Assembly: GCF_007833355.1 (NCBI RefSeq)
Contig: NZ_CP020914.1
Span: 1,412,047 to 1,476,046 of the forward strand
Length of the DNA: 64,000 nucleotides
Direction of reading: 5' to 3'
From: Denitratisoma sp. DHT3
GTDB lineage: Bacteria; Pseudomonadota; Gammaproteobacteria; Burkholderiales; Rhodocyclaceae
In this document: positions 22,311 to 40,916 of the stretch, piece by piece
Layout of the letters: each line of letters begins with the position of its first letter
How positions within the stretch are numbered: the first letter of the stretch is position 1
The notes under the pieces: model-generated
What the model was told of the DNA's origin: nothing
Database searches by the model: none
What the model saw: the letters and a program-made list of their open reading frames with translations, nothing else
Program-made: the position numbers and the translations under genes

Positions 22311-22376
22311 GATGCCTCCAAAGAAAAATGGGGAAGCACCGTCCCCGTCGGGGAGCAATGCATTCCCCGTGGGATG
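22311..22376 (-). ncRNA. radC-motif-like RNA leader, copy 2 (upstream of ardC-like gene)
   Basis: P1 is CCC-ACG-GGG. P2 has outer arms GCATTG and CGGTGC around CCCC-GAC-GGGG. The segment GGTGCTTCC (P2 3' arm plus following bases) is complementary to GGAGGCATC (ribosome-binding site plus spacer) over 9 of 9 positions counting G-U pairs. Confidence 0.8.
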
Positions 22377-22438
22377 AAGTTTCCGGTCGAAACCGGATGA
22401 CTGATGGAATGTCCGATGGACTTCCGGTTCTGCGACTG

Positions 22439-22702
22439 CTACTTCCTTCTTGCCGACCACACCGACAGGGCAAACTCTTTCGCCTCAACCGCATGCGGCC
22501 CAAGGAATTCGCTGGGCTTGCCTTCGATCTTGAAGAAGAGTCGTCGGCCAACCACTGCAATGTGCTGCCGTGCGCCGCAATCGGAGTCGAAGCGCGCGCG
22601 CAGGAATTGCCGATAATCGCCTTGCCATCCTGCAGGCGGGGCAAACGCGCCCTGCCCACCCGACATGGTGTCGATCAGACTGAAATCGATAACGCCGTAC
22701 AT
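22439..22702 (-). CDS. Hypothetical protein, 87 residues
   Basis: The ATG at 22702 follows TAGGAGAACGGTC, a good ribosome-binding site, and lies 11 bases after the primase stop, so it is probably the second gene of that transcript. The protein begins MYGVIDFSLIDTMSGGQGAF and has the centre RQHIAVVGRRLFFKIEGKP. It has no membrane segment or known motif that I recognise. The longer open frame in this register runs into the primase and is not used. Confidence 0.6.
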   Translation of the reverse strand: MYGVIDFSLIDTMSGGQGAFAPPAGWQGDYRQFLRARFDSDCGARQHIAVVGRRLFFKIEGKPSEFLGPHAVEAKEFALSVWSARRK

Positions 22703-22712
22703 GACCGTTCTC

Positions 22713-23777
22713 CTAGGCGGCTTGATGCAGCGCTTGTTCCACGCTGACCAAGGCGGGAAATCCCGCTTTACCCTCAAGAACGAACACGTCCAGCCAGTCG
22801 ATTCCCTTCTTGCCTTCCGGGATCTCCATGGCCGGTGCAATGGCGCCGGCACGGATACCCAGGGACCACAGCCGTTTGACCAGCTCACGCGCCGCTTCCT
22901 GCCCGTGACCGGATGGATGTTGGCGTGAGGGCCGGTCCTTGTCGGCAAAGACCAGAATCTGGTCGATCCCGGCCGGTGGCTGGAACGTCGCCAGCAGATG
23001 CGCGTTACCGGTGGCCCAAGCGGATATGCCCGTAGCCTCGGTGACGGCAAGTGCCGTCTCGATCCCCTCGGTGACTGCCAGGCGATGATTCGCCGGCACC
23101 AGTCGAATAGCGCCCCCGGTCATTTGACGCGCCAAGGGATGGCGCATCAGCTTCTTGGGGGAATCGACCGGCGCCTTGCGGCCCTCGGCGGTGAGATAGG
23201 TACGGTGGATGGTGACTGCATCGCCACCTTGCCCCGTCACTTGCGCAATCAGGGTCGGATAGTCGGCAAGGCGCCGGTTGTCTTCGTAGTATCCGAGTGC
23301 TGCATGAAACCGCAGCGTCTCGGGCACCTTGACCGACAGACCGCGACGAGCCAAATACAACCGTGCCGGCTCGGCGCTCGGGTGGGACAAAGCCACAGAC
23401 TCCCGCCAGGTGCGATTCAGCTGCTCCCGGCGCATCTCATCCTCGGATTTATCCGCCGCCGAATTGGCACTGCGCGACCGGCTGCCGACCTGTTCCGCCA
23501 CTTCGCGGATCGTCTGGCCAAAATCCCAGCCATTGATCCACATCAGCAGCGCAAACCCGTTGGCAAAACTGCCGCAGGTATTGCAAATGCCTCCCCCCGT
23601 ATCGGCGACATCCCGAAACAGGCGAAAGCCATCCCGACCGCCGTGAACCGGACAAGGCACATGCTTGCCTGTCCGTTCCATCGCGGCTTTCAGCGGTGGC
23701 GCGAGAGCTAGCAGAACCCGCTCCCAGCGACCACGCGCATCTTCCTTGACTTGCTGCGTCTCGTACTCGTGCTTCAT
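22713..23777 (-). CDS. DNA primase (zinc-binding plus Toprim domains)
   Basis: 354 residues from the ATG at 23777, with GGAGG 7 bases upstream. The N-terminus has a zinc-ribbon (CPVHGGRDGFRLFRD...ICNTCGSFANGFALL), the middle the segment AEPARLYLARRGLSV..LRFHAALGY, and the C-terminus a Toprim domain (LAVTEGIETALAV; ILVFADKDRP). This is the plasmid/phage P4-type primase layout. It would prime the transferred strand or plasmid replication. It carries the long form of the RNA leader. Confidence 0.85.
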   Translation of the reverse strand: MKHEYETQQVKEDARGRWERVLLALAPPLKAAMERTGKHVPCPVHGGRDGFRLFRDVADTGGGICNTCGSFANGFALLMWINGWDFGQTIREVAEQVGSRSRSANSAADKSEDEMRREQLNRTWRESVALSHPSAEPARLYLARRGLSVKVPETLRFHAALGYYEDNRRLADYPTLIAQVTGQGGDAVTIHRTYLTAEGRKAPVDSPKKLMRHPLARQMTGGAIRLVPANHRLAVTEGIETALAVTEATGISAWATGNAHLLATFQPPAGIDQILVFADKDRPSRQHPSGHGQEAARELVKRLWSLGIRAGAIAPAMEIPEGKKGIDWLDVFVLEGKAGFPALVSVEQALHQAA

Positions 23778-23925
23778 TGTCGATACCTCCATGTAACAAC
23801 TCCGTGTGGAAATCTCCGCGCGGCATGGAGCGATCCCGTCCGGGAATGGCTCCCCGGCGGGGTTGATGAATGCTGTTTGTTTTCTCGTGGCCAGCTACCA
23901 CGCGTCCGTCCAATGCCTTACGGCG
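23778..23925 (-). ncRNA. radC-motif-like RNA leader, copy 3, long form (upstream of primase)
   Basis: From the 5' end: hairpin H1 (GCCGTAAGGC, 23914-23923), hairpin H2 (CGTGG-TAGCTGG-CCACG, 23885-23901), the linker AAACAAACAGCATT (23869-23882), P1 (CCCCGCCGGGG) and P2 with arms GAGC/GCTC. GATCGCTCCATG can pair with CATGGAGGTATC at the ribosome-binding site over 10 of 12 positions. Confidence 0.8.
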
Positions 23926-23988
23926 TCAGACTGAATCCCATGTTCAGGCTTTGCACAGCAGGCTCGGAATACGCACCTAACCTGTTCT

Positions 23989-24022
23989 GAAAAACCCCGG
24001 CGCACAGAACGTGCGCGCCGGG
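23989..24022 (-). terminator. Rho-independent terminator downstream of the methylase-helicase gene
   Basis: On the minus strand, CCCGGCGCGCAC, a short loop, GTGCGCCGGGG and then TTTTT. It stands just upstream of the long leader of the primase gene and separates the two transcripts. It also lies between box D and the primase, so transcription from box D would meet it. Confidence 0.85.
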
Positions 24023-24087
24023 CAAGAGGACACAGGAGGGAGGAAACTGGATGCGATGCTACGCACCCGATCACCCTCTCGGATTTT

Positions 24088-24114
24088 GAAATGCGCCCTT
24101 TTGGGCTCGACTTC
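24088..24114. promoter_or_regulatory. Box D: near-palindrome between methylase-helicase and primase genes
   Basis: The left half GAAATGCG and a very symmetrical core GCCCTTTTGGGC match the series; the right half (TCGACTTC) is diverged. It lies 91 bases after the helicase stop. Confidence 0.5.
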
Positions 24115-24204: not shown

Positions 24205-27200
24205 TCACGCGACTTCGGTTTCCGCTTCCATCGCGCCGGCATTGCCCTTGTCGAGATCGAGACTGGCATTGATCTCGCGTTGGCGCACCAGCAGTTGCGT
24301 CAATCGATCTTCCTTATCGAAGGGCTTGGATATCTCGCCTAGGATGTCGGCCAGGCGCTTTTCTGCCCGTGCCAGATCCTCATGGACTTCCGCCAGCCTG
24401 CCTTCCAGCGCATTGGCTACGTTTTCGATCACCCTGACCATCCCAATGGGATTATCGGAATGATGTGCCACGTAGGCTCGCCGCTTTTTCAGCAGAAAGC
24501 TCGGTCCATCGGCTGCCGCCGTCGGTATCGATACCGCCAGATCGAAGCCGGCAAACTGCCCGACGACGATCTCCCCCGCCGACGTTTTCCAGTTCCCGAT
24601 CTTCCGGGTTCTAGCTTTGGCTTCGACGTAATACCGGACAAGCACTTCGCCTGCTTCGGCACGTTCGACAAAATGCTGCCCGTCGATCACCATGCAAAAG
24701 CGTTGGCCACGCACATCCATCCGATCAGCAATGTCCGCTTCGATCGCCTCGATCCGTTGCCGGAGTTTCTCGATGCGACCGGGCAAGGTGGCCGACTCCC
24801 TCTGGTTTGACCATCGCTGGTTGTCCCATTGGGATTTGAGCAAGGACAGCTTGGCGACCTCGGCATCGATGCCAGCCTTTTCCATGACCAGCGGATTGCC
24901 CGACGCCAGTGCCTTCACTTCGGCATAGGACAGCGCCGCCAGTTCCACATCCTCCGCGCTACGCATCCCGGTATCCCCACGCATCACCTGGGCGATGAAA
25001 CGTGCCTTGGTTTCGAGGGTCTGCCAGATGTAGGCGTCGAACGATGCCTCTGTCACGTAACGGACGATACGCACTTCCTCATTCAGGTTGCCCTGACGAA
25101 TAATGCGTCCCTCCCGTTGCTCGACGTCGGACGGACGCCATGGCGCATCCAGATGATGCAATGCCGCCAGACGCGTCTGGATATTGGTGCCTACCCCCAT
25201 TTTCAGGGTGCTGCCCAACAGAACGCGAATCCGCCCTTCCCGCACGGCCTTGAACAACTCGGCCTTCGCGGTATCGCTCTCGAAGTCATGAATGAAGGCG
25301 ATTTCCGTTCCCGGAACCCCCATCTCCACGAGCTTCGCCCGTATGACGTGATAGACACTGAACCGTCCATCGTCCGTTGGCGTACTCAGATCACAAAACA
25401 CGGCCTGAGTGCCTCGGAATGCCGTCGTATCGCGCCAGATGCCATGAATCCGCTCGGCGCACAGGCTCACTTTCCCATCCGCTGCCTCCGGCTCACGAGG
25501 AGTCACCAGCCGCATGTCCAGCGCGGCCTTGCGGCCATCGTTGGTTACCGCCAGCATGTTGTCCTCGTTGGGCGACACCGTACCGTTGCGAATGGCTTCG
25601 GCACGTTCCACCAGCGTTGCCACAAACGCCTTCAGGGCCGCCGTGGGTTTCGCTGTCACCGTCTCCAAATGGAAACGCGGCACCGGTAGCTTCAACATGT
25701 CCGCCGTTCGAATGTCCGCCACTTCGCGGAACATCGTCATCAGCTCGGGCAGATTCACGAAGCGGGCGAACCGCGTGTTCATGCGGTATCCCCCGCCATC
25801 GGGCGACAACTCCAAGGCCGTCACCGACTCGCCGAAATTGCCCGCCCAGGTATCGAACTGCGCCACATGATTCCCCCGCAGCGTCGCGGGTTGCAGATAG
25901 CGTTGCATGGTCCACATCTCCGCCATCGAGTTCGATACCGGCGTTCCTGTTGCGAACACCACCCCCGACCGGCCACCATGCTTGTCCATCACATGCCGCG
26001 TCTTCACGAACATATCGAAGGCACGTTCCGAGTTGGCATTGGGCAGTCCTGCGACCCGTGCCATCTTTGTGAACCGGTAGAGGTTCTTGAAGTAGTGCGC
26101 CTCGTCGATGAACAGGAAATCGACGCCCAGTTCCTCGAAGGTGAGCATGTCATCCTTCTTCGACTTCGCCGCCAGCTTCTCCAACCGCGCGAGCCAGCTC
26201 TTCTTGGCCCGCTCCAGCTCCTTGACGATCCGATTCCCTCGCTTCTGTGATTTCGAGGCCCGAATGGCACACTCGATCTCATAGACACGCGCTTCGATGA
26301 ACGTGGTCATGGCCTCGTCGCTCATCTTGATCCTCTCGAAGGAGGCGTGGGTAATCAGCACGCCATCCCAATCCCCAGTGGCGATTCGTGACAACAATGT
26401 CCGGCGTTTGTCGCCGACCAGGTCGTCCTTGCTCGCCATCAGGATATTGGCCCCGGGATAGGCTCGCAAAAACTCCGCCGCAAACTGCTCCAGCATGTGG
26501 TTTGGCACCACATAGCACGGCTTGCTGGCCATTCCCAGACGCCTCAACTCCATACCGCCACAGATCATCGTCAGAGTTTTGCCAGCACCGACCACATGGG
26601 CCAGCAAGGTATTCACCCCGCCCGACACGATGCGCCAGATGGCGTCCTTCTGATGCCGATGAAGGTTGAACACTTCGGAGAAGCCCGGCAGAGCCAGGCC
26701 CGACCCATCAAACTCCCGCAAGCGCACAGAATTAAATTGGTCGTTGTACAGCCTGACCAAGCGCTCACAACGATTCGCATCGGCAAACACCCAGGCACCA
26801 AATGCTTCCTTGAGCGCCTGCTGCTTCTCACGTGCGGCAATGGTTTCCTCCGTGTTCACGAAGTACCGGTCTGTCACCGGATCGCGATCCCGAATCGTTG
26901 GCACCATCTGGTTCAGCGTCACGACAAACAACTCGCCTGCCGAGATACGTCCGGTACCGAAGGTTTGGGTCGATGCGACCGACCGTTCACCTTGCCAGGG
27001 CACATCGATGTTCCACGCCCCGGCTTCCGCACAGAACTCCACCGTGCATCCCTCGCACTCCAGCAACTGATCGAGGAATTCGGCATAGTCCCTCGCCGGT
27101 ATCCAGGTCGATCCGATCCGGGCATCGATTTCTCCCGGCCCCAGATCAGCAGGCACCACCGCTTTCAAGGCATCCACATTGCGAACAAATTCTCCGCCCG

Positions 27201-29205
27201 CTGCTTCTGCCATTTCCAGCTTGCTGCGCACGTTCCCGGCCAGGTAAGCATCCGCGGTTTCCCACTGCGATGTTTCCGGATTCAGGAAGATCAGACCGCG
27301 ATCCGCCATGTCCGGGAGGAACGCCGATGACGCCTGCCCAAGCAGGGATGCCATCAACGCAACATCCACACATCCCCGCTCATGCAGCGACACCAACAGG
27401 GCCTCTTCCGGCGTATTGCAGCGGTCGACCTTGCGGACGACCCCCACGGTCCGACGGAAGAACACATCGGCCTTTTCCGCCACGCCGCCCTCCGGATCGT
27501 AACTCTCCAGAGACAACAGCAATGGCAGGTCTGGGTCTCCCTTGAACGCCAGCTTGTTGGCCTTGGCATGCAGATAGCCATGCCGCGCCACAAAGCCGTC
27601 ATAGGCCATGTTGAGCATCATGCGGTAACTACCAAGACGGCTATCGTCATCCGTGAGATGCTGGACATGCAGCAATTTTCTCGCCGCATCACGAATCGCC
27701 ATCATGCCGACGATGCGCTTGGCAGCCGTTGCCGATACCGTTCCCTCGATGACCAGCAGCTCCTGGCCTTCCGAAACAGCCAAACGGCCATCGTCGGTGA
27801 GGCAGAATGCGCCCGGCTTCACGAACTCCGGCGCCGCGGCATGAATGTCGCGCTGCGGCTTGCCACTGGGCTGGGAATTTCTCTCCACCCGTGGGTGATG
27901 AACACCCTCTGGCAACCGCGCAATCCGTTCCCGTAAAGCAGTGCCGATATCGCCATCGAAAATGGCGGCATTCGACAAGCCATAGCCATTCGACTTCTGT
28001 CCCATGCGCCCGATCAGCATCTCCGGGTTCTGGACATACCAGTTCGAGACATACAAACGGCGGGAGCCATCGCACATCGCATAGGGCGCTTCGACCACGC
28101 TGATCCAGTCGTCGGTGGCCTTTTCGCCTGCCCCCAACTTCTGGAGAAAGACGATGTCGGTCGTGACGTCGGTATTTGCGATCTGCGAAAACGTCCCGGA
28201 CGGCAGACGGATCGCCCCCAGCAGCTTTGCCTGCGAAGCCATATGGCGCCGCGCCCGGTCTTCCCACTTGTCCAACGTTCCGGCCGACGTGATGAACGCC
28301 ACCAGACCACCCGGACGGGTCACTTCCAGGGCTCGCCCGAAGAAGTAATCGTGGATCAGGAAGTTTGCATAAGGCACGTTCCGATCGTCCGGCACCTGAT
28401 AGTTCCCGAACGGAACATTCGAGATCACCAGATCGAACCAGTCTTTGGGCAATCGCGCCTTCTCGAAGCCCACCGTCAAGGTACGAACCCCGTGTTGCCC
28501 ATACAGGCGCGACAGCATCCGTGACGACAGACGGTCGATTTCGATGGCCGTGATTTCCGATACTTCGGCCAGTTCCTTTGGCATGGCACCGATGAAATAC
28601 CCGGTACCTGCCGAGGGATCGAGGACGCGACCGCCCCGAAATCCGAGTCGGCGCACCGCCTCCCAGATAGCATCGATCACGAACACTGCCGTGTAATGGG
28701 CATTGACCACACTCCCCTTGGCGCTCGTGTAATCCTCGCCCAACAGGTCCGGCAATGACTCGGCTCTCGCCCGCCACGCTGGATCGTCCTGCTCAGGATT
28801 GAATGCTTTGGGAAGCCCGCCCCACCCCGTATAACGATTGAGAACGGATCGCTCTTCGTCAGTCGGGAATCGGTTTTCGGCATCCAGCAACGACAACACT
28901 GCGATCGCCGCCAGATTCGCCTCGAACTTCCCGACCTCCCCACGCAACATCGCATGCGGAGAGCCATCCAGCGCGGGCCATACCGATCGGATAGGCTTGA
29001 GTGCCGGAACGTCGGCCGCCACCTCGATAACCCGTTCTGCGATGTCGCCCGAACTTCCCTCGTCGATGACCGGAACGGCGTCATGTACTTCGTTGACTAA
29101 GGGAAAGGCGATAATTTCCGCCGTGCTTCTTGCCTCCGACAATGGATCGTCCGGGGCAAATCCGGGAAGCCACATAGTGACCTCCGCAAGTTTCTTGAGT
29201 TTCAT
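24205..29205 (-). CDS. Giant N6-adenine methylase / SNF2-type helicase fusion
   Basis: 1666 residues from the ATG at 29205 (CAGGAG upstream). The N-terminal third is a class I methyltransferase with motif I (VLDPSAGTGYFIGAMP) and motif IV NVPFG in place of the common NPPF/Y. The middle third is a superfamily 2 helicase: LAHVVGAGKTLTMICGG (Walker A), FLFIDEAHYFKN (DEAH box), FATGTPVSNSMAEM (motif III) and, near residue 1420, QREGRIIRQGN (motif VI). A long C-terminal coiled-coil follows. Similar 'DEAD/DEAH helicase-methylase' giants are frequent on plasmids and ICEs and are thought to protect or remodel incoming DNA; the function is not established. Confidence 0.88.
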   Translation of the reverse strand: MKLKKLAEVTMWLPGFAPDDPLSEARSTAEIIAFPLVNEVHDAVPVIDEGSSGDIAERVIEVAADVPALKPIRSVWPALDGSPHAMLRGEVGKFEANLAAIAVLSLLDAENRFPTDEERSVLNRYTGWGGLPKAFNPEQDDPAWRARAESLPDLLGEDYTSAKGSVVNAHYTAVFVIDAIWEAVRRLGFRGGRVLDPSAGTGYFIGAMPKELAEVSEITAIEIDRLSSRMLSRLYGQHGVRTLTVGFEKARLPKDWFDLVISNVPFGNYQVPDDRNVPYANFLIHDYFFGRALEVTRPGGLVAFITSAGTLDKWEDRARRHMASQAKLLGAIRLPSGTFSQIANTDVTTDIVFLQKLGAGEKATDDWISVVEAPYAMCDGSRRLYVSNWYVQNPEMLIGRMGQKSNGYGLSNAAIFDGDIGTALRERIARLPEGVHHPRVERNSQPSGKPQRDIHAAAPEFVKPGAFCLTDDGRLAVSEGQELLVIEGTVSATAAKRIVGMMAIRDAARKLLHVQHLTDDDSRLGSYRMMLNMAYDGFVARHGYLHAKANKLAFKGDPDLPLLLSLESYDPEGGVAEKADVFFRRTVGVVRKVDRCNTPEEALLVSLHERGCVDVALMASLLGQASSAFLPDMADRGLIFLNPETSQWETADAYLAGNVRSKLEMAEAAGGEFVRNVDALKAVVPADLGPGEIDARIGSTWIPARDYAEFLDQLLECEGCTVEFCAEAGAWNIDVPWQGERSVASTQTFGTGRISAGELFVVTLNQMVPTIRDRDPVTDRYFVNTEETIAAREKQQALKEAFGAWVFADANRCERLVRLYNDQFNSVRLREFDGSGLALPGFSEVFNLHRHQKDAIWRIVSGGVNTLLAHVVGAGKTLTMICGGMELRRLGMASKPCYVVPNHMLEQFAAEFLRAYPGANILMASKDDLVGDKRRTLLSRIATGDWDGVLITHASFERIKMSDEAMTTFIEARVYEIECAIRASKSQKRGNRIVKELERAKKSWLARLEKLAAKSKKDDMLTFEELGVDFLFIDEAHYFKNLYRFTKMARVAGLPNANSERAFDMFVKTRHVMDKHGGRSGVVFATGTPVSNSMAEMWTMQRYLQPATLRGNHVAQFDTWAGNFGESVTALELSPDGGGYRMNTRFARFVNLPELMTMFREVADIRTADMLKLPVPRFHLETVTAKPTAALKAFVATLVERAEAIRNGTVSPNEDNMLAVTNDGRKAALDMRLVTPREPEAADGKVSLCAERIHGIWRDTTAFRGTQAVFCDLSTPTDDGRFSVYHVIRAKLVEMGVPGTEIAFIHDFESDTAKAELFKAVREGRIRVLLGSTLKMGVGTNIQTRLAALHHLDAPWRPSDVEQREGRIIRQGNLNEEVRIVRYVTEASFDAYIWQTLETKARFIAQVMRGDTGMRSAEDVELAALSYAEVKALASGNPLVMEKAGIDAEVAKLSLLKSQWDNQRWSNQRESATLPGRIEKLRQRIEAIEADIADRMDVRGQRFCMVIDGQHFVERAEAGEVLVRYYVEAKARTRKIGNWKTSAGEIVVGQFAGFDLAVSIPTAAADGPSFLLKKRRAYVAHHSDNPIGMVRVIENVANALEGRLAEVHEDLARAEKRLADILGEISKPFDKEDRLTQLLVRQREINASLDLDKGNAGAMEAETEVA

Positions 29206-29268
29206 GCGGTTCTCCTGAAAAGCCGGAGACACGCTCCCCCTCCGGGGTGTGTCCCCGGAAGGGTTGAG
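29206..29268 (-). ncRNA. radC-motif-like RNA leader, copy 4 (upstream of methylase-helicase)
   Basis: P1 is CCCTTCCGGGG; P2 arms are GACAC/GTGTC around CCCC-GGAG-GGGG. Here the ribosome-binding segment is GGAGAACCGC and the P2-side segment has changed to GCGTGTCTCC, still complementary at 8 of 10 positions, a sign of covariation. Confidence 0.8.
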
Positions 29269-29337
29269 AAACTTTGGTGGATCGGATGTCGAAGGCGCGA
29301 GCCCTGACAACCGACCGGGTGATGCAAAGACGACTGT

Positions 29338-29913
29338 CTACATTTCGCCACGCCCGCCAACTTCGATCTTTCGCCACAGGGACTTGGAATCACTCAGCCA
29401 GTGATAGCGAACGAAGGCCGACAAATCGGCGTCATCGTCGATGGAAAGGATGAAGCGCTCGATACCGTCCCCGCTGCCGTTGAGCGCCAGACCGGTCCGG
29501 TTTTCGCGGAACTTGGCCAGACACTCGGCGTCGTAGCGGTCACGCATCTTCTGCGTGTCGATATCGATACAGAGCGAGACCCGGACACCCCGGTTTCTGG
29601 CTTCCTCCAATGAGACGGCGTCCGCCACCACCCGCCGCAGGCGAGCGATATAGGCTTCCGGCTTCATCCAGCGACCGTGTGGCTTGAGCGATCCGCCTTC
29701 GCAGGCGGCCGCAAACTCCACGACGGTTTGCATGACCTGCCAGGACATGCCGAGGGCCATGCAGGACCACCGACGCGGACGCTTGCCGTCCTGCCGATAG
29801 ACATTGTTGTCACCCCCCAGCGAAGCCAGAATGAAATGGTCTTCGTAGGCGGATTCGATACGTTCCTTGGGCAGACGAATTGCCACCCAGTCATACTCGA
29901 TGCGATACGACAT
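29338..29913 (-). CDS. Hypothetical protein, 191 residues
   Basis: The ATG at 29913 follows GGAGGCATCAC and a structured leader. The protein is acidic and soluble, with no clear membrane segment: it starts SYRIEYDWVAIRLPKERI and has the central segment RRWSCMALGMSWQVMQTVVE and a C-terminal RFILSIDDDADLSAFVRYHW. I do not recognise a family. It follows the PRTRC genes and precedes the helicase, each with its own leader copy. Confidence 0.7.
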   Translation of the reverse strand: MSYRIEYDWVAIRLPKERIESAYEDHFILASLGGDNNVYRQDGKRPRRWSCMALGMSWQVMQTVVEFAAACEGGSLKPHGRWMKPEAYIARLRRVVADAVSLEEARNRGVRVSLCIDIDTQKMRDRYDAECLAKFRENRTGLALNGSGDGIERFILSIDDDADLSAFVRYHWLSDSKSLWRKIEVGGRGEM

Positions 29914-29980
29914 GTGATGCCTCCAGAATTGAATGCCGGAGACACCTATCCCTTCCGGGCGATGTCCCCGGACGGGTGAT
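29914..29980 (-). ncRNA. radC-motif-like RNA leader, copy 5
   Basis: P1 is CCCGTCCGGGG; P2 arms GACATC/GGTGTC. GGTGTCTCC pairs with GGAGGCATC at the ribosome-binding site at 9 of 9 positions counting G-U, so P2 and the ribosome-binding-site helix are mutually exclusive. This is the clearest example of the switch. Confidence 0.82.
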
Positions 29981-30000
29981 GGCCGTGAGGCCGAATGGAT

Positions 30001-30360: not shown

Positions 30361-30416
30361 GACCATCCCCTGGCCACGCGAATCGCTTCGCGCAGCATTC
30401 GTACATCGTGCTTCAT
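30357..30416 (-). CDS. 19-residue leader peptide MKHDVRMLREAIRVARGWS
   Basis: A short ORF with a strong ribosome-binding site (GGAGGCACC) directly after RNA leader copy 6. Its TGA overlaps the ATG of the 119-residue gene. Its place, where every other leader copy has a full gene start, suggests that it is translated and passes ribosomes on to the next gene. Alternatively the peptide itself could be functional. Confidence 0.55.
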   Translation of the reverse strand: MKHDVRMLREAIRVARGWS

Positions 30417-30540
30417 GGTGCCTCCAGTAAAAAATCGGGAGGCAGCGACCCTGTCGGGAGCGAGCCCCCACAGGGTTGAGAAATGCTGTTTGTTTCCAGC
30501 GGCCAGCTACCGCCTTTCAGTCGTTCCCCTATGGGAACGG
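30417..30540 (-). ncRNA. radC-motif-like RNA leader, copy 6, long form
   Basis: H1 is CGTTCCC-ATAG-GGGAACG (30522-30539); H2 is GCGG-TAGCTGG-CCGC (30499-30513); then AAACAAACAGCATTT, P1 and P2. GCTGCCTCC can pair with GGAGGCACC at 8 of 9 positions. Confidence 0.8.
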
Positions 30541-32072: not shown

Positions 32073-32809
32073 CACGCATCTCCTTCCAGCACCGCGGCCT
32101 CAAATGCTTGCCGTAGCGTCCAACCCGTCGGAACGAGCGTGCGCGTTGGAAAGCGACTCAGGCGAGCGTCCAGCAGATCCCGCCACAAGGCAAACGGACC
32201 GGCCCGGTAACGGGTCAGCCCCCTTGGGGTATGGATGTTCGGATGCGTGAAGTAGGACCGGAAGAAGGCTTCCTCCCAGGCTAGGTGGTTATGTGCCTGA
32301 TCGCCTTTCGGCAAGCGGGCACTGCCGACACAGATCGTGCCGTTTTGCCAGACGTTGAAGAATGGCGCAACAAACAGCGGTGTGTCGGCATCGGGACGTT
32401 GCCGCCCCTTGAACGCAAACACCTTCCATGCCTTCGTGGTCACTACGAACACCAGCCCCGGACAGGGAACCCGTGAGGTTCGCGCACCGAGTTCCTTGCA
32501 GTCGAACCAGACCTGTCTGTCCTGTGGATCGCAGTACCAGACGAAGAAACCCGATCCTTCCGCGAGCACATGCGCCGGCTTGATGGCCGGCTTGAGCATC
32601 GTTTCCGGATCGAGAATCCGCATCAGCGCCATGAGTCCCGCCTTGCTGGCCGGAACCCCTGCTTGAATCACCGGACGATTGCCATCGTCCGATCCCACAT
32701 CATGAATCGACACGAACGCCGGCTTGCGTTGCGCATCCTGATAGACCAGGACGGCATGGGTCAGCCGGTACGACTGTTCGCTGGAAAACGTACTGACATT
32801 GATCGCCAT
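32072..32809 (-). CDS. PRTRC system protein B (E2-like)
   Basis: 245 residues from the ATG at 32809, which follows AAGGAGGTCGCG. The segment PFFNVWQNGTICVGSARLP has the form of the E2 flap and catalytic-cysteine region (N...NGxIC), supporting an E2-like fold with Cys in GTICVGS. The rest matches the PRTRC_B family (LTHAVLVYQ near the N-terminus). It would receive ubiquitin-like protein C from ThiF. No target is known. Confidence 0.85.
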   Translation of the reverse strand: MAINVSTFSSEQSYRLTHAVLVYQDAQRKPAFVSIHDVGSDDGNRPVIQAGVPASKAGLMALMRILDPETMLKPAIKPAHVLAEGSGFFVWYCDPQDRQVWFDCKELGARTSRVPCPGLVFVVTTKAWKVFAFKGRQRPDADTPLFVAPFFNVWQNGTICVGSARLPKGDQAHNHLAWEEAFFRSYFTHPNIHTPRGLTRYRAGPFALWRDLLDARLSRFPTRTLVPTGWTLRQAFEAAVLEGDA

Positions 32810-32880
32810 CGCGACCTCCTTGTTGAAATGGTGCAGGCGTGTCGAGCCCGGCGGGCAGGACATCACCCGCTCCGGGTTAA
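32810..32880 (-). ncRNA. radC-motif-like RNA leader, copy 7 (upstream of PRTRC B)
   Basis: P1 is CCCGGAGCGGG; P2 has arms TGTC/GACA around GCCC-GCC-GGGC. Pairing of CGAC..CCT with the AAGGAGGTCG ribosome-binding site is possible but interrupted. Confidence 0.65.
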
Positions 32881-32886
32881 TGGAAC

Positions 32887-34463: not shown

Positions 34464-34473
34464 GACGCCCTCC

Positions 34474-34884
34474 TCATGCGAAAAGGTTGTCTTCGACCGG
34501 AACGTCGGCGGCTGCCGGCGTCTCGGTCTCATCATCATCGTCATCAGCTGGCGCCGCTACCTTGGCCGTGCCTTTCCTGAGTGCGCCTTCCGCTTTCTTG
34601 CTGGCGTCCTTTTTGGCTGCCTCAAGAATGTTGCGGGTGGCTTCCAGTTGCTCGGCCAGCGATTGATGCTCGTCGGCAAAGCTGCGAAGCAATCCGACGA
34701 ATTGCGCATCCAGCTCCTCCGCCGTTCCAGTCAGGACCAGCGGGATCGCCAACGCCTCGGCATCCTTGGCATCCTTCGGGGTGGGTCGCACCGTGACGGT
34801 GATCAGTCCTTCCCTGGCCGATGACAAAGTGACCGCCAGTGCTGCGCAGCCGTCCAACAACGATTTCAGTTCCTGAAAAAACAT
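34474..34884 (-). CDS. PRTRC system protein E
   Basis: 136 residues, ATG at 34884. The N-terminal FFQELKSLLDGCAALAVTLS followed by LITVTVRPTPKDAKD, a helical middle and an acidic end (DDDDDETETP, finishing DNLFA) agree with PRTRC_E. Role unknown. It overlaps nothing and precedes protein C by 10 bases. Confidence 0.82.
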   Translation of the reverse strand: MFFQELKSLLDGCAALAVTLSSAREGLITVTVRPTPKDAKDAEALAIPLVLTGTAEELDAQFVGLLRSFADEHQSLAEQLEATRNILEAAKKDASKKAEGALRKGTAKVAAPADDDDDETETPAAADVPVEDNLFA

Positions 34885-34960
34885 GGTGGTACCTCCAAAG
34901 AGAAAAATTGCAGGCGCACCACGCCCCGTGCGGGGAACGTGGTCCCCGCATGGGTGGAAA
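34885..34960 (-). ncRNA. radC-motif-like RNA leader, copy 8 (upstream of PRTRC E)
   Basis: P1 is CCCATGCGGGG; P2 has six-base outer arms ACCACG/CGTGGT around CCCC-GCAC-GGGG. The arm segment GTGGT can instead pair with ACCAC next to the GGAGGT ribosome-binding site. Confidence 0.78.
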
Positions 34961-34969
34961 GAAACTGTC

Positions 34970-36661
34970 TTACGCGATGTTGAAGCGCATCGACCGCGGC
35001 ACCTTGCCCTCGTAGGGGAAAGCCGCCACGTTTAACAGCGCCTTGACGATGTCGTCTTTCTTGCCGCTCATGGCCTTGGCAAATGTCCCGCCCATGGCGA
35101 CCTTCAAGCCGATTTCGTCGCACATCGCCTCGATTTCGCTCTTGGTGAGCAGCTTGAGAAACTCTTCGCAGAGCTTCCAGTGCCGCCCGAGATCGATCTC
35201 GAGATAGGTGAGGATCTGGACCAGAGTCTTCTCCTCGATGCCATCCGCTGCCGATGCCGCCAGTCCGAGGAACAACTTGTCCCGAACGGCTTCATCCGAC
35301 TGCGCCACCAGGCGTGCTGCCTCGTCCGCCTTGAACACGAAGCTGGTGAACTCCTGCTTGGTGATCGCGGCGAATGCCTTGCCCAGCTTGGTATCGCTGA
35401 TATGGCGGGCATTGCCCGATAACGCCAGGGCGATGAGTACCGTGAGATTGTTGTCACGATTGCCCATCAACTCCCGACGCAGCGCCTTGCGCCAGACTGT
35501 CAGCCGGTAGTCCTTGACCCGTTGCGAGTCCTGGACCTTGGCATCCGACTTGGTATCTGGCTGAGATGCGGCCTTGCCGGATGACTTGGCAGGGGTTGCC
35601 GACTTGCCTGACGCTGTCTTTGCAGAACCTTCCGCCGGCGTTGCCTTGTCCTTTTCCAGCTTGATGCGCGCTGCCACCTTCTTGGCATTGCAGCTCGCAT
35701 CGAAGCACAGGTCGGGATAGACATTGCCCAGCTTGCCGGGCACAGCCGAGATCGCGGCACCGAAGTTCTTGCAGGCGCGGCAGGCTTTTGCCTGTTCGTC
35801 GCCTACCCCGGTATCGCCCTCCGCCAGCAGTCGCAGGAGCGTGAAGTTCTCGCCGGGCCGAACGATCCGAATGGTCGGATAGTCGTCAGCCAGCGATGCC
35901 TTCTTTGCGTCCAGCGCCGCCTCGGTCTTGCCATCGAAACACGCACCGTGGGTGCAGTGTCCGGCGGCAATCGCCTCGCCAAAGAGCGCCTGCTGATTCC
36001 CCGAGTTATGGGAACACGACGTGCACTCGCCCTTGTCGAAGATGGCGCTGCTCAACGCCCGTGAGATCTGCTCAAGCTGCCCGCGAAACTGGGCGACCGT
36101 CGGCAGACTGGCCTGTGACAGCAACTTCTCCAACACGGCATCCTGCTTGTCGCGGGTGACCGCAGCCAACAGCTCGGCGTGACCCAGCTGGATGCGCCGC
36201 TCGGACAAGGCCCGACGGACCCGTTCCGAACAGTTCATCAGTGCCAGGCGCTTGTCGAGCGTGGTTCGCGACCATCCCAGACGACGTGAGGCCTCGTCCC
36301 GATCTCCCTGACAGCGGCCAAGAATCTTGGCGGCCGCTTCGGCTTCTTCGGTCGGACTCATGTCCGCACGCTGGATGTTTTCGATCAGCGCCGCCTCGTC
36401 GGCTTCGCCATCGTCCAGGTCGCGCACCAGTGCCGGGATTTCATACTCATCCCCAAACACCTTCTTTGCCGCACGCCAGCGACGCTCGCCGGCAACGATC
36501 TCGTAACGCCCCGCATCGCGGGGACGCACGAGGATCGCCTGCAGCACGCCCTTGGATTTCACGGAATCTTCCAACGCCGTCATTTCCGAGGGATCGAAGT
36601 AGCCTCGGGGATTGCGGCCGGGAAGGATGTTCCCGACCTTGATTGATGCTTGCAGTTGCAT
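34970..36661 (-). CDS. PRTRC system ParB-family protein
   Basis: 563 residues from the ATG at 36661 (GGAGGCATC upstream). The N-terminal 200 residues are a ParB/Srx-like domain with the GERRWRAAKK and ALIENIQRADMSPTEEAEAA motifs and an HTH (DRDEASRRLGWSRTTLDKRL). The middle has several cysteines (CTSCSHN, HCTHGACFD, CRACKNFG, CFDASCN) that could bind zinc, then a low-complexity Lys/Ala/Ser linker (about 370-410). It is the first gene of the PRTRC cassette, presumably a DNA-binding segregation or regulatory protein. Confidence 0.9.
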   Translation of the reverse strand: MQLQASIKVGNILPGRNPRGYFDPSEMTALEDSVKSKGVLQAILVRPRDAGRYEIVAGERRWRAAKKVFGDEYEIPALVRDLDDGEADEAALIENIQRADMSPTEEAEAAAKILGRCQGDRDEASRRLGWSRTTLDKRLALMNCSERVRRALSERRIQLGHAELLAAVTRDKQDAVLEKLLSQASLPTVAQFRGQLEQISRALSSAIFDKGECTSCSHNSGNQQALFGEAIAAGHCTHGACFDGKTEAALDAKKASLADDYPTIRIVRPGENFTLLRLLAEGDTGVGDEQAKACRACKNFGAAISAVPGKLGNVYPDLCFDASCNAKKVAARIKLEKDKATPAEGSAKTASGKSATPAKSSGKAASQPDTKSDAKVQDSQRVKDYRLTVWRKALRRELMGNRDNNLTVLIALALSGNARHISDTKLGKAFAAITKQEFTSFVFKADEAARLVAQSDEAVRDKLFLGLAASAADGIEEKTLVQILTYLEIDLGRHWKLCEEFLKLLTKSEIEAMCDEIGLKVAMGGTFAKAMSGKKDDIVKALLNVAAFPYEGKVPRSMRFNIA

Positions 36662-36734
36662 GATGCCTCCATTGAAAAATGGCAGGCAGCCGCATCCCCG
36701 GACGGGAATGCAACTGTCCCGCCAGGGGTGAAAT
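36662..36734 (-). ncRNA. radC-motif-like RNA leader, copy 9 (upstream of PRTRC parB)
   Basis: P1 is CCCCTGGCGGGA. P2 has the longest outer stem of the set, CAGTTGCAT/ATGCGGCTG (nine pairs with G-U). TGCCT after P2 can pair with AGGCA of the ribosome-binding site. Confidence 0.75.
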
Positions 36735-36740
36735 GAATCG

Positions 36741-37082: not shown

Positions 37083-37096
37083 GCGAATTGCCTGCG

Positions 37097-37309: not shown

Positions 37310-38403
37310 TTGCCATCCTCCCCGAAAATGTCATTCGCCGAGGAAGACGGATTGGCCAGTGCAGACTTGCGGCTGCGATAGGCGCGCAGCACCTGTTCCA
37401 GCTCGGTGCCCTCGAACGAGCCTTCAGCCCGGACATAGACTTCATCCAGTTCGTCGGTCGTTGCCGTCCTGCCGATGATGGCCAGGGTGTCCTGCAGCAG
37501 CTTGCCAGTGGCGTGAGGCTCGACGCCTTTGGGCGACTCCGCCTTGTCAGACTTGCTACCCTTATCACCGGACTCGGTCGTGGGTTGAATGATCTCCCCC
37601 GTTTCCTCGTCGATGATCGGTGCCCAGGAGCCTTCGATGGCTTCGGTGATTCCGATGTTCTGGTTTTCACCTCGCTCGGTCACCTCATCGAGCGCCAGCG
37701 CCATCGCCAGTTCAGGCGACTTCGGCAACAGGTTGCACAGCCGCCGAATCACGGTCTTGAGGCCCATCGGGACGAAATGCGTATCCCATGGACTTTCCTT
37801 GCCGTACTTCTTGGCCATCTGGTAGCCCCGCGAGTTATCGCGCACCTGTTCGATCTGTTCCTTCGACAGGGCGTGAAACGTGCGAGTGCCGTCCTTGAAA
37901 ACCGCAACCGCATAGAAGCCCACGATCACACCGCGCTCCTCGTCGGAGGCAGGGAATCCGTTCTTCTTCAACGGTTCGTGCATCAGGGTCCGGTTAAGGC
38001 CCAGGACGATGTCGAACTTGTCGTTGATGCGAACTTCGTGACCGTAGATGTCCTGCACGATGCCGCTGTTGCGGGCCAGCTTCATGAGTCCCTGATAACC
38101 GGGGATCAACTGGCACTGATTGCCGAAAGGAACGAGGTGGGCTTCGCCCATCAAGCCGACTTCGAGCCCGAGCTGGCTGGACTGGATCACCGCCGCAAAG
38201 ACGCTGCGGGGATCGGTCTGGGCCAGTTTCGGGTTCATGCGGAACGCGGTCAGTGCGATGCGCACCATGCGATCCGGACTCAAGTGCTTGGGCAGTGCGC
38301 GGGCAATTTCGCCTTTGAACTGCTCCAGCATGGCCGGGAACGGCACCACGTTGGACTGCACGCCTTGGCGGGACTTCTGGATGTTGCGTAGGGTTTGAGA
38401 CAT
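37306..38403 (-). CDS. recT: RecT-family single-strand annealing protein
   Basis: 365 residues from the ATG at 38403 (GGAGAAAACC upstream). The central region is the RecT fold: FAAVIQSSQLGLEVGLMGEA, then LVPFGNQCQLIPGYQGLMKL and SPWDTHFVPMGLKTVIRRLC. RecT anneals complementary single strands and works with a RecE-like exonuclease, encoded next door (38500-39333), and SSB. SXT/R391 and IncA/C elements carry comparable bet/exo pairs that drive recombination between elements. Confidence 0.93.
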   Translation of the reverse strand: MSQTLRNIQKSRQGVQSNVVPFPAMLEQFKGEIARALPKHLSPDRMVRIALTAFRMNPKLAQTDPRSVFAAVIQSSQLGLEVGLMGEAHLVPFGNQCQLIPGYQGLMKLARNSGIVQDIYGHEVRINDKFDIVLGLNRTLMHEPLKKNGFPASDEERGVIVGFYAVAVFKDGTRTFHALSKEQIEQVRDNSRGYQMAKKYGKESPWDTHFVPMGLKTVIRRLCNLLPKSPELAMALALDEVTERGENQNIGITEAIEGSWAPIIDEETGEIIQPTTESGDKGSKSDKAESPKGVEPHATGKLLQDTLAIIGRTATTDELDEVYVRAEGSFEGTELEQVLRAYRSRKSALANPSSSANDIFGEDGK

Positions 38404-38476
38404 GGTTTTCTCCAAAGAAGAATGGCGAAGACACCTGTCTCCCTGGACGGGGATGTGTATCCCCGCCGGGGTTGAT
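38404..38476 (-). ncRNA. radC-motif-like RNA leader, copy 10 (upstream of recT)
   Basis: P1 is CCCCGGCGGGG; P2 arms GATAC/GTGTC. GGTGTCTTC can pair with the altered ribosome-binding segment GGAGAAAACC at about 7 positions. Confidence 0.75.
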
Positions 38477-38499
38477 GACCTACAAAGAAATGCCGCGGA

Positions 38500-39333
38500 T
38501 TAGGCGGCGTCCAGCTCGAAGGCTTCTGTGTTGGCTGCCCAGCGTGGCAGGGAGATCAGTTCAATCTCGCCACCCGGTTGGTATGCCGGCCAGTTGTTTG
38601 ATGCCTGGCACCACTTCAAGAGCTGAAGCGCCGCCCGGTATTTCTTGCGCCCGATCTCGATCACGTCGGGATCGGCGCGATACACCGCTACCGCATGCGG
38701 CGCGTCCTTCTCCACGGCGACAAACAGGAACGGAAGCTCCATTCCGGTCACGGCCTTGATCCCGTCGACGTAGTACGCCGCCTGGATGTCGTAGCCGAAG
38801 TTCGCAATGGATTTGGAGAACCCGCTACTGCTGGCATCGACGCAGGTCTTGAGATCAACGATGGCTTCACCGTTGAACCAATCCGGCCGACACTTGCAGT
38901 TGAGGCCCGTGTCCGCATCCGTCCAGAACGCCGAGAGCTCGGCGTCACCAACGGACAGAAGTCGTGCCGCCCCTTGATGGGCAAACACGGCACGCTGCAC
39001 CAGGGTGAGCGTGGCCATCTCCTCGGAAGTAATCACGATCTTGCCCTGATTGGCTTCCTCGAAGCGTGCTGCTGCTTCCTTGCCTTCCTTCGTGCGACGG
39101 TCGAACTTCTCGGCCACCACGAATTCCTCGGCAAAGCGATCCTGCTCCAGTACATAGGTATGCACTGCAGTACCGAACGCCATGGCAGGTGTCGGTTGAT
39201 GCGGATGATCCAGATACTCGCGCAGGTGGGCCGGGCTTTTGAGCATCTTGACGATACCCGAATGGCCGATGGCTTTCTCCGCGTGATACTGCGTGGCCGG
39301 CATGACGAGCAGGCCGGGATGATTGAGTTTCAT
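38500..39333 (-). CDS. RecE-like PD-(D/E)xK exonuclease
   Basis: 277 residues, ATG at 39333 (GGAGGCATC upstream). The nuclease core is MAFGTAVHTYVLEQDRF (first helix, Glu), NCKCRPDWFNGEAIVDLKTC (the D...DxK catalytic centre) and YDIQAAYYVDGI (Gln motif), the arrangement of RecE/lambda-exo-like and PDDEXK_1 nucleases. It would resect DNA ends for RecT. It starts the recombination operon and has a long-form RNA leader. Confidence 0.88.
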   Translation of the reverse strand: MKLNHPGLLVMPATQYHAEKAIGHSGIVKMLKSPAHLREYLDHPHQPTPAMAFGTAVHTYVLEQDRFAEEFVVAEKFDRRTKEGKEAAARFEEANQGKIVITSEEMATLTLVQRAVFAHQGAARLLSVGDAELSAFWTDADTGLNCKCRPDWFNGEAIVDLKTCVDASSSGFSKSIANFGYDIQAAYYVDGIKAVTGMELPFLFVAVEKDAPHAVAVYRADPDVIEIGRKKYRAALQLLKWCQASNNWPAYQPGGEIELISLPRWAANTEAFELDAA

Positions 39334-39460
39334 GATGCCTCCAGAGTGAATGCCGGAAGCACCGACCCGAACCGGGGCGTTGTCCCCGGCTGGGTTGGAA
39401 AATGCTGTTTGTTTCGCGCGGCCAGCTACCGCTTTTCAATCGAACGGATAACCGTCCGAT
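39334..39460 (-). ncRNA. radC-motif-like RNA leader, copy 11, long form (upstream of exonuclease)
   Basis: H1 is CGGACGG-TTAT-CCGTTCG (39441-39458); H2 GCGG-TAGCTGG-CCGC (39418-39432); the AAACAAACAGCATT linker; P1 CCCAGCCGGGG; P2. GGTGCTTCC is complementary to GGAGGCATC at 9 of 9 positions counting G-U. Confidence 0.82.
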
Positions 39461-39504
39461 CAAATCTGTCTTTCCGCAGGACGCTCGGGGCGAACGCCCT
39501 CGGG

Positions 39505-39527
39505 AAAGCCCCGGAGGTCCGGGGCGA
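39505..39527 (-). terminator. Terminator-like hairpin after the 53-residue gene
   Basis: On the minus strand GCCCCGGACCTCCGGGGC followed by TTTCC. It lies just after the stop of the 53-residue gene and before long leader copy 11. Confidence 0.6.
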
Positions 39528-39532
39528 TGGGA

Positions 39533-39694
39533 TCATTCGATGGTTCCGGCTTTGCGCGCCATGTCGAGTGCCTTCAGCAACATGTCGCGGGTTTCCATGT
39601 CCCGCTTGCCTTCCCTCAGCCGTTGGTAGAGATCGCAGGCAAAGGCCATGGGCAGCGGGTCGAACAATCGAACGAGATAGGGATTGAGTTTCAT
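39533..39694 (-). CDS. Hypothetical protein, 53 residues
   Basis: ATG at 39694 after CTGGAGAAAATC. The small protein begins MKLNPYLVRLFDPLPMAFAC and ends DMLLKALDMARKAGTIE; it is mainly helical with a hydrophobic patch. It is too short to place. The open frame continues upstream through an RNA hairpin region and is not coding there. Confidence 0.55.
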   Translation of the reverse strand: MKLNPYLVRLFDPLPMAFACDLYQRLREGKRDMETRDMLLKALDMARKAGTIE

Positions 39695-39810
39695 GATTTT
39701 CTCCAGAGGTTGTTGAGATTCCCTGGCGAAAACCGCATCCAAAATGGAGCGATCCCCGCAGGACAAAGGGCTCTTCGAGAAAAGCGCTTTGTGCTGCGGG
39801 GAAGACCCCC
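39695..39810 (-). ncRNA. Diverged radC-motif-like leader, copy 12
   Basis: The ATGGAGCGATCCC stretch seen in copy 3 recurs, but the hairpin is replaced by a much longer one (39753-39801, arms CCCCGCAG and CTGCGGGG with ACAAAG/CTTTGT inside). P1 is not clear. Assigned to the set by position and partial similarity only. Confidence 0.4.
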
Positions 39811-39827
39811 ACAGGCAATACTGCGAA

Positions 39828-39905
39828 CTACAGACCGAGCGCGCGAACGATCGGACGGCTGATGATCCAGCCAGAGATGCAGCATGCGAGAAGAACGAGT
39901 TCCAT
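39828..39905 (-). CDS. 25-residue membrane peptide
   Basis: A short ORF from the ATG at 39905 to the TAG at 39828-39830, with a strong ribosome-binding site (AGGAGGCACCTC) and its own RNA leader (copy 13). The peptide begins MELVLLACCISGWIISRP: a single hydrophobic segment with a Cys pair and a basic end. The leader and ribosome-binding site argue that it is expressed. Function unknown. Confidence 0.55.
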   Translation of the reverse strand: MELVLLACCISGWIISRPIVRALGL

Positions 39906-39974
39906 GAGGTGCCTCCTGAAATGAAAAAAGGGGCACCGATCCCCTTGCGGAGGCGATGCCCCCGCTGGGGTGGA
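39906..39974 (-). ncRNA. radC-motif-like RNA leader, copy 13 (upstream of 25-residue peptide)
   Basis: P1 is CCCCAGCGGGG; P2 has seven-base arms GGCATCG/CGGTGCC. GGTGCCCCT can pair with GGAGGCACC at 8 of 9 positions. Confidence 0.8.
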
Positions 39975-39978
39975 AATT

Positions 39979-40251
39979 TCAGGCAATGACTTCGAAGGAA
40001 GCCTTTGCCGTGTGGCCGGAATCGTTGCCGGTCCCGTTGCGGCGTAGATACGCCGGTATGTCGTACTGCCGCCAATCCGTGATCACTTCCTCGGCCGGTA
40101 CTTCATCTGCCTCTGCCACCACCTCCTCGACCTTGGCCTGGAGGCGAACACGCAGGAATGAGCCACGAATGGCTTCCAGCGCAAACTGAAGAAACGAAAG
40201 GATCAGATGCAGGCCTGCCAGCATGGCCAGGACAAGAATGACGCGTTCCAC
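39979..40251 (-). CDS. Small membrane-anchored protein, 90 residues
   Basis: The GTG at 40251 is spaced 7 bases from GGAGG; a TTG at 40257 is less likely. An N-terminal membrane anchor (VILVLAMLAGLHLILSFLQF) is followed by a basic helix and an acidic stretch (VEEVVAEADEVPAEEV) and a C-terminal tail. It follows ssb in the same direction. Family not recognised. Confidence 0.62.
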   Translation of the reverse strand: MERVILVLAMLAGLHLILSFLQFALEAIRGSFLRVRLQAKVEEVVAEADEVPAEEVITDWRQYDIPAYLRRNGTGNDSGHTAKASFEVIA

Positions 40252-40316
40252 GAACAAACCTCCAAAGGTGATGGAGGTCCTTCCCCCAGGGGAGGAAGGA
40301 CCTCCCGGTGGGGAAA
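40252..40316 (-). ncRNA. radC-motif-like RNA leader, copy 14
   Basis: P1 is CCCCACCGGG. P2 is a perfect 12-bp hairpin, GGAGGTCCTTCC/GGAAGGACCTCC. The end of its 3' arm, ACCTCC, is also exactly complementary to the GGAGGT ribosome-binding site downstream, so the two foldings exclude each other. Confidence 0.8.
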
Positions 40317-40331
40317 CAAGAAACGTGCGAC

Positions 40332-40784
40332 TCAGAACGGCTCGATGTCGGGTACATCCTCGAATGCAGGACCCGTAGCAGCTGCAGGCTTGCCTTTACC
40401 GTTGCCGGTACGCTTGCCTTTGCCTGCGTCGGGTGCATCATCATCCGCTGGACGCGTGCCGAGCATCTTCATCTCGCTGGCGAGAATTTCGACGACATAA
40501 CGATCCTGCCCCGCCTTGTCCTGCCATTTGCGGGTCTGGATGCGACCTTCGACGTAGACGGGCGAGCCCTTCTTCAGGTACTCGCCTACGACCTCCGCCG
40601 TGCGACCAAAAAAGACGACACGGTGCCATTCAGTGATTTCCTTCTTTTCACCGGACGACTTGTCCTTGTACGTCTCCGTCGTTGCGATCCGAATCGTTGC
40701 GATCGCTTCGCGGTTCTGCGTGTAACGAACCTCAGGGTCGGCACCCAAGTTGCCGATGAGGGTGACTCTGTTTAGTGATGCCAT
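40332..40784 (-). CDS. ssb: Single-stranded DNA-binding protein
   Basis: 150 residues, ATG at 40784 after AGGAGGTAGTC. The OB-fold is standard ([60 protein letters not shown]). A Gly/Lys-rich linker leads to the acidic C-terminal tip VPDIEPF, a variant of the usual DDDIPF. It protects single strands during transfer and recombination and works with RecT. It is the first gene after box E. Confidence 0.95.
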
Positions 40785-40916
40785 GACTACCTCCTGACAA
40801 AAGTTGAAATTGGCAGGAAGGCCGTCATCACCTGACGGGGTATCCCCGCCGGGGTTTGAAATGCTGTTTGTTTGGGAAGGCCAGCTACCTTCACCGTGTC
40901 CGCCATAAGGAGGACA
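40785..40916 (-). ncRNA. radC-motif-like RNA leader, copy 15, long form (upstream of ssb)
   Basis: H1 GTCCTCC-TTAT-GGCGGAC (40898-40915); H2 GAAGG-TAGCTGG-CCTTC (40876-40892); linker AAACAAACAGCATT (40860-40873); P1 CCCCGGCGGGG; P2 core CCGTCA/TGACGG. CCTTCCTG can pair with CAGGAGGT at 7 of 8 positions. Confidence 0.8.

Follow-up and report, generated by a model that had tools for sequence, protein, structure and literature searches.

Repeated leader RNAs with two mutually exclusive helices on mobile elements, a likely family of translational switches

In translational riboswitches such as preQ1-II and SAM-II, mutually exclusive helices of an mRNA leader decide access to the Shine-Dalgarno (SD) sequence in cis. 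Control of integrative elements, on the other side, has mostly been described at the level of transcription. Here, we describe a leader of about 75 nucleotides (nt) that is repeated on a PRTRC-type mobile element of Denitratisoma sp. DHT3, whose genome consists of 3.66 Mb in one contig. The window, that is, the whole stretch analysed, comprises 64,000 nt (positions 1,412,047 to 1,476,046 of NZ_CP020914.1), and coordinates below refer to it. A first covariance model, trained on 13 window leaders with a single helix (P2) as the sole structure, finds 14 copies on the minus strand, each upstream of a gene start. These leaders have a common anatomy and stand before start codons, they carry two helices that exclude each other and co-vary, and they occur on several kinds of mobile element. 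We consider it likely that each of them is a self-contained switch of translation acting in cis, with an OFF and an ON fold and perhaps one trans-acting factor in common.

Six segments alternate from 5′ to 3′ in the order Y1, R1, Y2, R2, Y3 and R3. Y1 is ACCC, R1 is close to CGGGGACA, Y2 is CCCCG and R2 is GGGG. Y3, close to GGTGTCTCC, is followed by an often T-rich linker and then by R3, the SD region of the gene, which consists of GGAG and the 5-10 bases up to the start codon. Three arrangements of helices are possible: Y1:R2 around R1:Y2 as an upstream hairpin, R1:Y3 as P2 (R1 is its 5′ arm and Y3 its 3′ arm), and Y3:R3 as the SD helix. Since Y3 is common to R1:Y3 and Y3:R3, P2 and the SD helix are mutually exclusive, and since R1 is common to R1:Y2 and R1:Y3, it cannot pair with both. 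R1 also resembles the R3 of its own leader (z 5.2 in the set of 60 leaders described below). Pairing with Y2 in the upstream hairpin and resembling R3, R1 is thus an anti-anti-SD. The copy with the top model score, at 39330-39402 on the minus strand, lies before a DUF3799 gene (38500-39333; Pfam match) and has Y1 at 39395-39392, R1 at 39389-39380, Y2 at 39377-39372, R2 at 39369-39365, Y3 at 39363-39353, R3 with the SD at 39342-39334 and the ATG at 39333-39331.

The initial annotation of this region had claimed that the 3′ arm of P2 is also complementary to the ribosome-binding site of each copy's own gene. The arms that it quoted are all present on the minus strand: GGTGCTTCC and GGAGGCATC at 39330-39402 and 22307-22382, GGTGTCTCC at 29912-29984, GATCGCTCCATG and CATGGAGGTATC at 23778-23870, GCGTGTCTCC and GGAGAACCGC at 29204-29271, CCTTCCTG and CAGGAGGT at 40782-40862, and ACCTCC and GGAGGT, with a P2 of 12 base pairs (bp), at 40251-40321. 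The pairings given for its copies 3, 4 and 15 hold on a recount by eye. The SDs are all alike, so that part of the Y3:R3 complementarity is trivial; for this reason each Y3 was paired in turn with the R3 of its own copy and with those of the other copies. Within the window (n=14), own pairs reach −13.6 kcal/mol vs. −11.6 kcal/mol for swapped pairs (z −3.4), and 1 of 5000 permutations is as good, while the control R1:R3 gives z −0.5. When Y3 is shuffled instead, 10 of the 14 copies reach p≤0.05. The copies above this value are those at 32807 (0.40), 23778 (0.27), 40782 (0.09) and 36658 (0.06), in a test whose Y3 window of 14 nt cuts some arms; with a longer Y3 window, Y3:R3 is −17.7 kcal/mol at 40782 and −15.3 kcal/mol at 36658. 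Copies 1 and 7 had been said to fit less well, which stands for copy 7 (32807) but not for the presumed copy 1 (21428), whose pairing is good (p 0.023). The signal from the window alone is suggestive, not strong.

Homologous leaders were compared in two sets. For the first set, 80 loci were fetched via PRTRC ThiF proteins, and 67 of them were searched together with the window. This gave 177 leader matches at E≤0.01 from 68 sources, every one on the same strand as the PRTRC genes; 150 of them were aligned and thinned to 60 that are under 75% alike. The second set was obtained with a second covariance model from 12 regions of 11 other genomes and two regions of this genome. Of its 97 matches at E≤0.3, eight lie in an apparent second element of this genome. 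Seven matches have no recognisable SD and start codon (three of these are partial matches on the opposite strand), and the 90 that were left were thinned to 86; in repeat tests of this set, four of the 90 rows were dropped. The second set comes mostly from other elements, one of the 11 genomes (G107) having PRTRC. The Y3:R3 pairs are contained in neither covariance model.

In both sets, Y3 fits the R3 of its own leader. Own pairs reach −13.8 kcal/mol vs. −9.9 kcal/mol after swapping in the first set (z −12.2, 0 of 2000 permutations, n=60), and −15.1 vs. −11.05 kcal/mol in the second (z −14.4, 0 of 5000 permutations, n=86). Own Y3:R3 is better on average in 11 of 11 loci with at least four leaders, although barely so in locus L126 of the second set. 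When the SD core is excluded, so that only the first nine bases of Y3 face the part of R3 that follows GGAG, z remains at −9.7 in the 60-leader set; at the R3 positions after the SD the pair types vary, and at least eight pairs are found in 55 of 60 leaders. The competing helix behaves likewise. For R1:Y3, own pairs reach −16.5 vs. −11.4 kcal/mol for swapped ones in the first set (z −14.4, n=60), and z is −17.1 in the second (n=86). R1:Y2 gives z −8.7 in the first set, and −7.3 and, for the second set, −9.7 in later swap tests. In the second set, Y1:R2 and Y2:R2 give z −6.0 and −4.7 vs. −2.1 for their control. As to the other controls, own and swapped R1:R3 are not different in either set, nor are linker:R3 and Y1:R3 in the first set, and reversed Y3 has a small effect above chance (z −2.2 and −2.6 in the two sets).

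Shared ancestry was guarded against by comparing orthologs, with each leader used once and both arms different. Own Y3:R3 is better in 55 of 74 such pairs and worse in 12; for R1:Y3 the figures are 70 and 3 of 74, and for the control R1:R3 33 and 28 of 73. The leader lies directly before a start codon and is able to pair with the SD of that gene, and a second conserved helix, R1:Y3, excludes this pairing. As judged from the two sets and the ortholog pairs, compensatory change has kept both of these mutually exclusive helices in homologous leaders, and the random loss of complementarity that had been named beforehand as the refuting result did not occur. Because both pairings are kept via matched changes in relatives, the leader looks like an on/off switch for protein synthesis.

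Folds were predicted for the 60 leaders of the first set and the 90 unthinned leaders of the second, with approximate segment borders and with pseudoknots outside the model. An SD helix of at least five pairs is part of the minimum free energy structure in 51 of 60 leaders of the first set and in 80 of 90 of the second. When the upstream part is folded alone, R1 pairs downstream in 54 of 59 and 82 of 87 cases, and R1:Y2 would form first during transcription. Since the SD helix is present in most minimum free energy structures and R1:Y2 would come first, the resting state is likely the OFF form, in which the SD is predicted to be hidden, and something would have to favour P2. We infer that P2 is the ON form, which would free the SD. 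The initial annotation had assigned the same roles to the two helices and had assumed that their balance can be shifted. Its interpretation is supported in part, namely in the exclusion and the conservation of the two helices, whereas P2 as the ON form is a prediction. In alternative folding, which it had suggested as a check, most copies are predicted in the SD-paired form, and the P2 form is energetically uphill.

The same predictions could be read in terms of a static or kinetic timer without any ligand, in which the SD helix merely keeps translation low or delays it and P2 is passed through during folding, much as folding intermediates time translation of the maturation gene of phage MS2. 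This would suit the prediction that most copies have an SD helix in their ground state, and also the fact that no shared regulator turned up. However, R1:Y3 is the most strongly conserved pairing of those tested, and P2 would not be a natural intermediate because R1:Y2 would form before Y3 is made. We therefore regard a timer as unlikely.

Under the switch that we favour, R1 would pair with Y2 in the OFF state in a hairpin closed by Y1:R2, and Y3 would pair with R3, often reaching towards the start codon, so that the ribosome could not load. In the ON state, R1, imitating the SD, would capture Y3, and R3 together with the often T-rich linker would be left single-stranded. The linker also invites a reading at the level of transcription, in which P2 and the linker make an intrinsic terminator and the R1:Y2 hairpin is the antiterminator. 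Just after Y3, 42 of the 60 leaders and 32 of the 90 have a run of four T, and a terminator scan picks up three of the 14 window leaders. Yet the scan of the window is near chance, with 19 sites vs. 14.8 (standard deviation 4.9) in shuffled sequences, and a stem with a T run is not a feature of all copies, the run being missing from 76 of 150 leaders. Moreover, R3 is transcribed only once the T run has been passed, so that the conserved Y3:R3 pairing cannot influence termination. Control of termination thus appears quite improbable.

There are a number of results that speak against a translational switch. In the window, own R3 is the best partner of Y3 in only two of 14 leaders, and four of the 14 do not beat shuffled Y3. 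Ortholog pairs that are 75-97% alike give no signal for Y3:R3 (11 better, 10 worse and 46 ties, n=67), and in a cruder, ungapped ortholog count, which leaves no room for register shifts and is therefore of little weight, 308 changed pairs are broken and 169 preserved over 125 comparisons. In the first set, Y1:R2 and Y2:R2 show no gain (z −2.8 and −2.2, control −2.8). As for the folds, when the SD helix and R1:Y2 are both barred, the structures are less stable by 8.9 and 7.0 kcal/mol (medians of the two sets). In this alternative fold, only 49 of 60 leaders of the first set form a P2 of at least six pairs (87 of 90 in the second set). OFF folds that combine the SD helix with R1:Y2 are seen in only 21 of 60 and 75 of 90 leaders, and in the upstream part folded alone, Y1 pairs outside the R1 helix in only 45 of 59 and 21 of 87 cases. 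Finally, no shared RNA-binding protein was recognised in a gene-sharing comparison of partly covered element regions. What the elements have in common is RadC and ParB relatives; with four other genomes, a block at positions 1-12066 of the window is shared as well.

It is our guess that all copies share one trans-acting factor. This seems the most likely arrangement because the same architecture stands before many gene starts with arms that are specific to each copy. The most conserved stretch of the 5′ half is an unpaired flank ending in AACCC together with the G-rich R1. With CCC as the alignment anchor, position −1 is A in 88-89% and positions −6 to −1 are G in only 0-6% of leaders (59 and 89 leaders). 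By its conservation, this part suits a putative binding site, and one factor that recognises the flank and the G-rich hairpin might flip all copies together. A search for a trans RNA complementary to the conserved flank found none: there were 26 sites vs. 18.2 expected by chance, some of them the leaders' own antisense.

Proteins of the CsrA/Rsm or ProQ type might be such a factor. CsrA and ProQ act on mRNA leaders, Csr-like genes (csrT) are known on integrative elements, and GGA is present in R1 and R3. Against this, a CsrA-family match is missing in three of 13 leader-bearing genomes, this genome among them, and CsrA was rejected as the common regulator on that ground. ProQ was rejected as well, since the family has a match in only two of the 13 and none in the other 11; the ProQ gene of this genome is at 1.977 Mb, outside the window and the region of the second element. 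Control of either type is thus hardly to be expected.

The leaders are not restricted to the element in the window. With the second model, a match at E≤0.001 is found in 28 of 369 whole genomes of the class, among them the present one. Only two of these 28 have PRTRC ThiF above the family cut-off, and the leaders are therefore not tied to PRTRC. In a wider draw, 10 of 398 genomes of the phylum have a match at E≤1e-4, two of them from other classes with one match each. Leaders are found on the plasmids pHG1 of Cupriavidus necator H16, pMOL28 of C. metallidurans and a plasmid of Azonexus hydrophilus; one of those on pHG1, at L128:6898-6969, precedes a ParB-family gene. They also occur in STY4534-type elements that lack PRTRC and, each time before an STY4534-family gene, on plasmids of Pseudomonas veronii and Stutzerimonas stutzeri. 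Six of 10 proteins behind leaders of this kind match Pfam and four have no match; the families behind leaders are DUF3577 (STY4534), DUF3275, DUF6094, an SNF2-like helicase, RecT and ArdC. It is possible, and we put this forward tentatively, that the leaders are a large, undescribed class of translational switch RNAs on conjugative plasmids and integrative elements, which form an element-wide regulon. A single trans factor or signal (possibly excision, or the arrival in a new cell) would then turn on the replication, recombination and anti-restriction set at once, while the arms stay private to each copy. Such a repeated switch would add a translational layer common to otherwise different elements. 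The leaders, including the copies on pHG1 and pMOL28, are defined by sequence and easily mutated, so they can serve as test objects and as a route to hunt for the regulator.

In the window, the leaders punctuate a minus-strand gene series that runs from 40.8 kb to 20.8 kb and, by names that include Pfam matches, comprises ssb, the DUF3799 gene, a RecT gene, a ParB-family gene, PRTRC proteins E, C, F, B and A with ThiF, an open reading frame (ORF) of 1666 amino acids (aa) with helicase and methylase domains, a weakly DnaG-like gene and radC. The series opens with ssb (40332-40784), whose leader is at 40782-40862 (Pfam, covariance model). Downstream, the leader at 40251-40321 precedes a short ORF and has a perfect 12-bp P2 and, in the predicted fold, a 9-bp SD helix. 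The leader at 39904-39978 precedes an ORF of 25 aa (39828-39905; covariance model), that at 38401-38479 the RecT-family gene (Pfam, covariance model), and that at 36658-36735 the ParB-family gene, its P2 having 13 bp and one bulged base by eye. PRTRC E follows the leader at 34884-34962 (Pfam, covariance model) and PRTRC B that at 32807-32885, which has the weakest SD pairing of the window. The first start codon after the leader at 30413-30483 begins an ORF of only about 19 codons (30416-30357, minus strand, read by eye), for which the automated assignment chose another start codon. The overlap of this ORF with the next start codon suggests translational coupling to the gene that ends at 29946. 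The leader at 29912-29984 precedes an ORF at 29338-29913 (covariance model), and that at 29204-29271 the helicase/methylase-domain ORF (24205-29205; Pfam, covariance model). Before the weakly DnaG-like ORF, whose likely start codon is 23779-23777, the leader at 23778-23870 has an additional hairpin between Y3 and the SD. The last two, both found by the covariance model, are at 22307-22382 before an ORF at 21513-22310 and at 21428-21501 before radC (ORF 20828-21427); the latter is the one copy of the 14 outside the range 22311-40916.

This arrangement bears on coupling as a general explanation, in which a ribosome finishing the upstream gene would cover Y1, free R2 and let P2 form. In a survey of 197 leader pairs, related loci included, 124 distances from stop codon to Y1 fall between −60 and 400 nt, with no negative value among them and 17 of less than 15 nt. 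The values extend to almost 400 nt, a spread that intervening genes without leaders may inflate, and the ssb leader is the first of its series. General coupling is therefore very unlikely in our estimation.

Other features were seen beside the leaders. A second conserved RNA element occurs on the minus strand at 40889, 39430, 30511 and 23899, 27-29 nt before the leaders at 40782, 39330, 30413 and 23778. It is a hairpin, GG-UAGCUG-GCC, followed by AAACAAACAGCA, in which CAGC could pair with the loop as a small pseudoknot; GCTGGCCAATC..AAACAAACAGAA or a near form of it is found at the distant loci L016, L018, L023, L024, L026, L030, L031 and L038. At about 39693-39800 (minus strand), a divergent leader precedes a small ORF. 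The model misses this leader near 39693; pairing of its SD with a segment further upstream is possible (GGTTTTC with GAAAATC), and its 5′ part is a different long hairpin. A second apparent element of the same genome (G000:C1:2066000-2085900, L083) has an STY4534-like gene and, on its plus strand, weaker copies of the leader. The first model detects seven of them, as weaker matches (E≤1) at 2.07-2.08 Mb, and the second-model search eight. In another genome, a region with leaders contains pieces of a group II intron at L118:2774-2923 and 568-645 (minus strand), and a group II intron maturase is found in the Stutzerimonas plasmid region (L148).

In Rfam, no family scores above its gathering threshold in the window, seven leader loci give group II intron pieces only, and a permissive search of 38300-41000 gives one miRNA-type match below the cut-off and off the leaders. 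Titles and abstract beginnings listed by searches of open-licence papers, part of them without the element term, give no description of these leaders, nor did queries there for ICEclc with Shine-Dalgarno and for STY4534 return one. By term search, "conjugative" occurs 0 times in the main texts of two papers on noncoding RNA discovery (PMC11109978 and PMC6429828).

Among known systems, RNA thermometers likewise hide the SD in a hairpin with G-U pairs, but they need no conserved competing anti-anti-SD arm, which the leader has. CsrA/RsmA leaders and CsrT of integrative and conjugative elements are similar in the post-transcriptional control of many genes and in the link to integrative elements. 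The present leader differs in that its SD is in a predicted stem, not in a hairpin loop, and in that the genome has no CsrA-family match. Repression by RegA and gp32 of phage T4 offers a likeness in that one factor acts via leaders on several DNA-metabolism genes of a mobile element, although it is not known to involve a conserved two-helix switch. The leader shares with preQ1-II and SAM-II its action in cis, the mutually exclusive helices over the SD and a possible pseudoknot (Y1:R2 with R1:Y3). It differs from them in that a single element has 14 copies, each with its own arm sequence, in that no ligand pocket and no Rfam match were recognised, and in the replication, recombination and anti-restriction genes downstream. 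It is unusual for a leader to recur before so many gene starts with arms of its own each time. In its logic the leader is like a translational riboswitch, and as a family it appears to be new.

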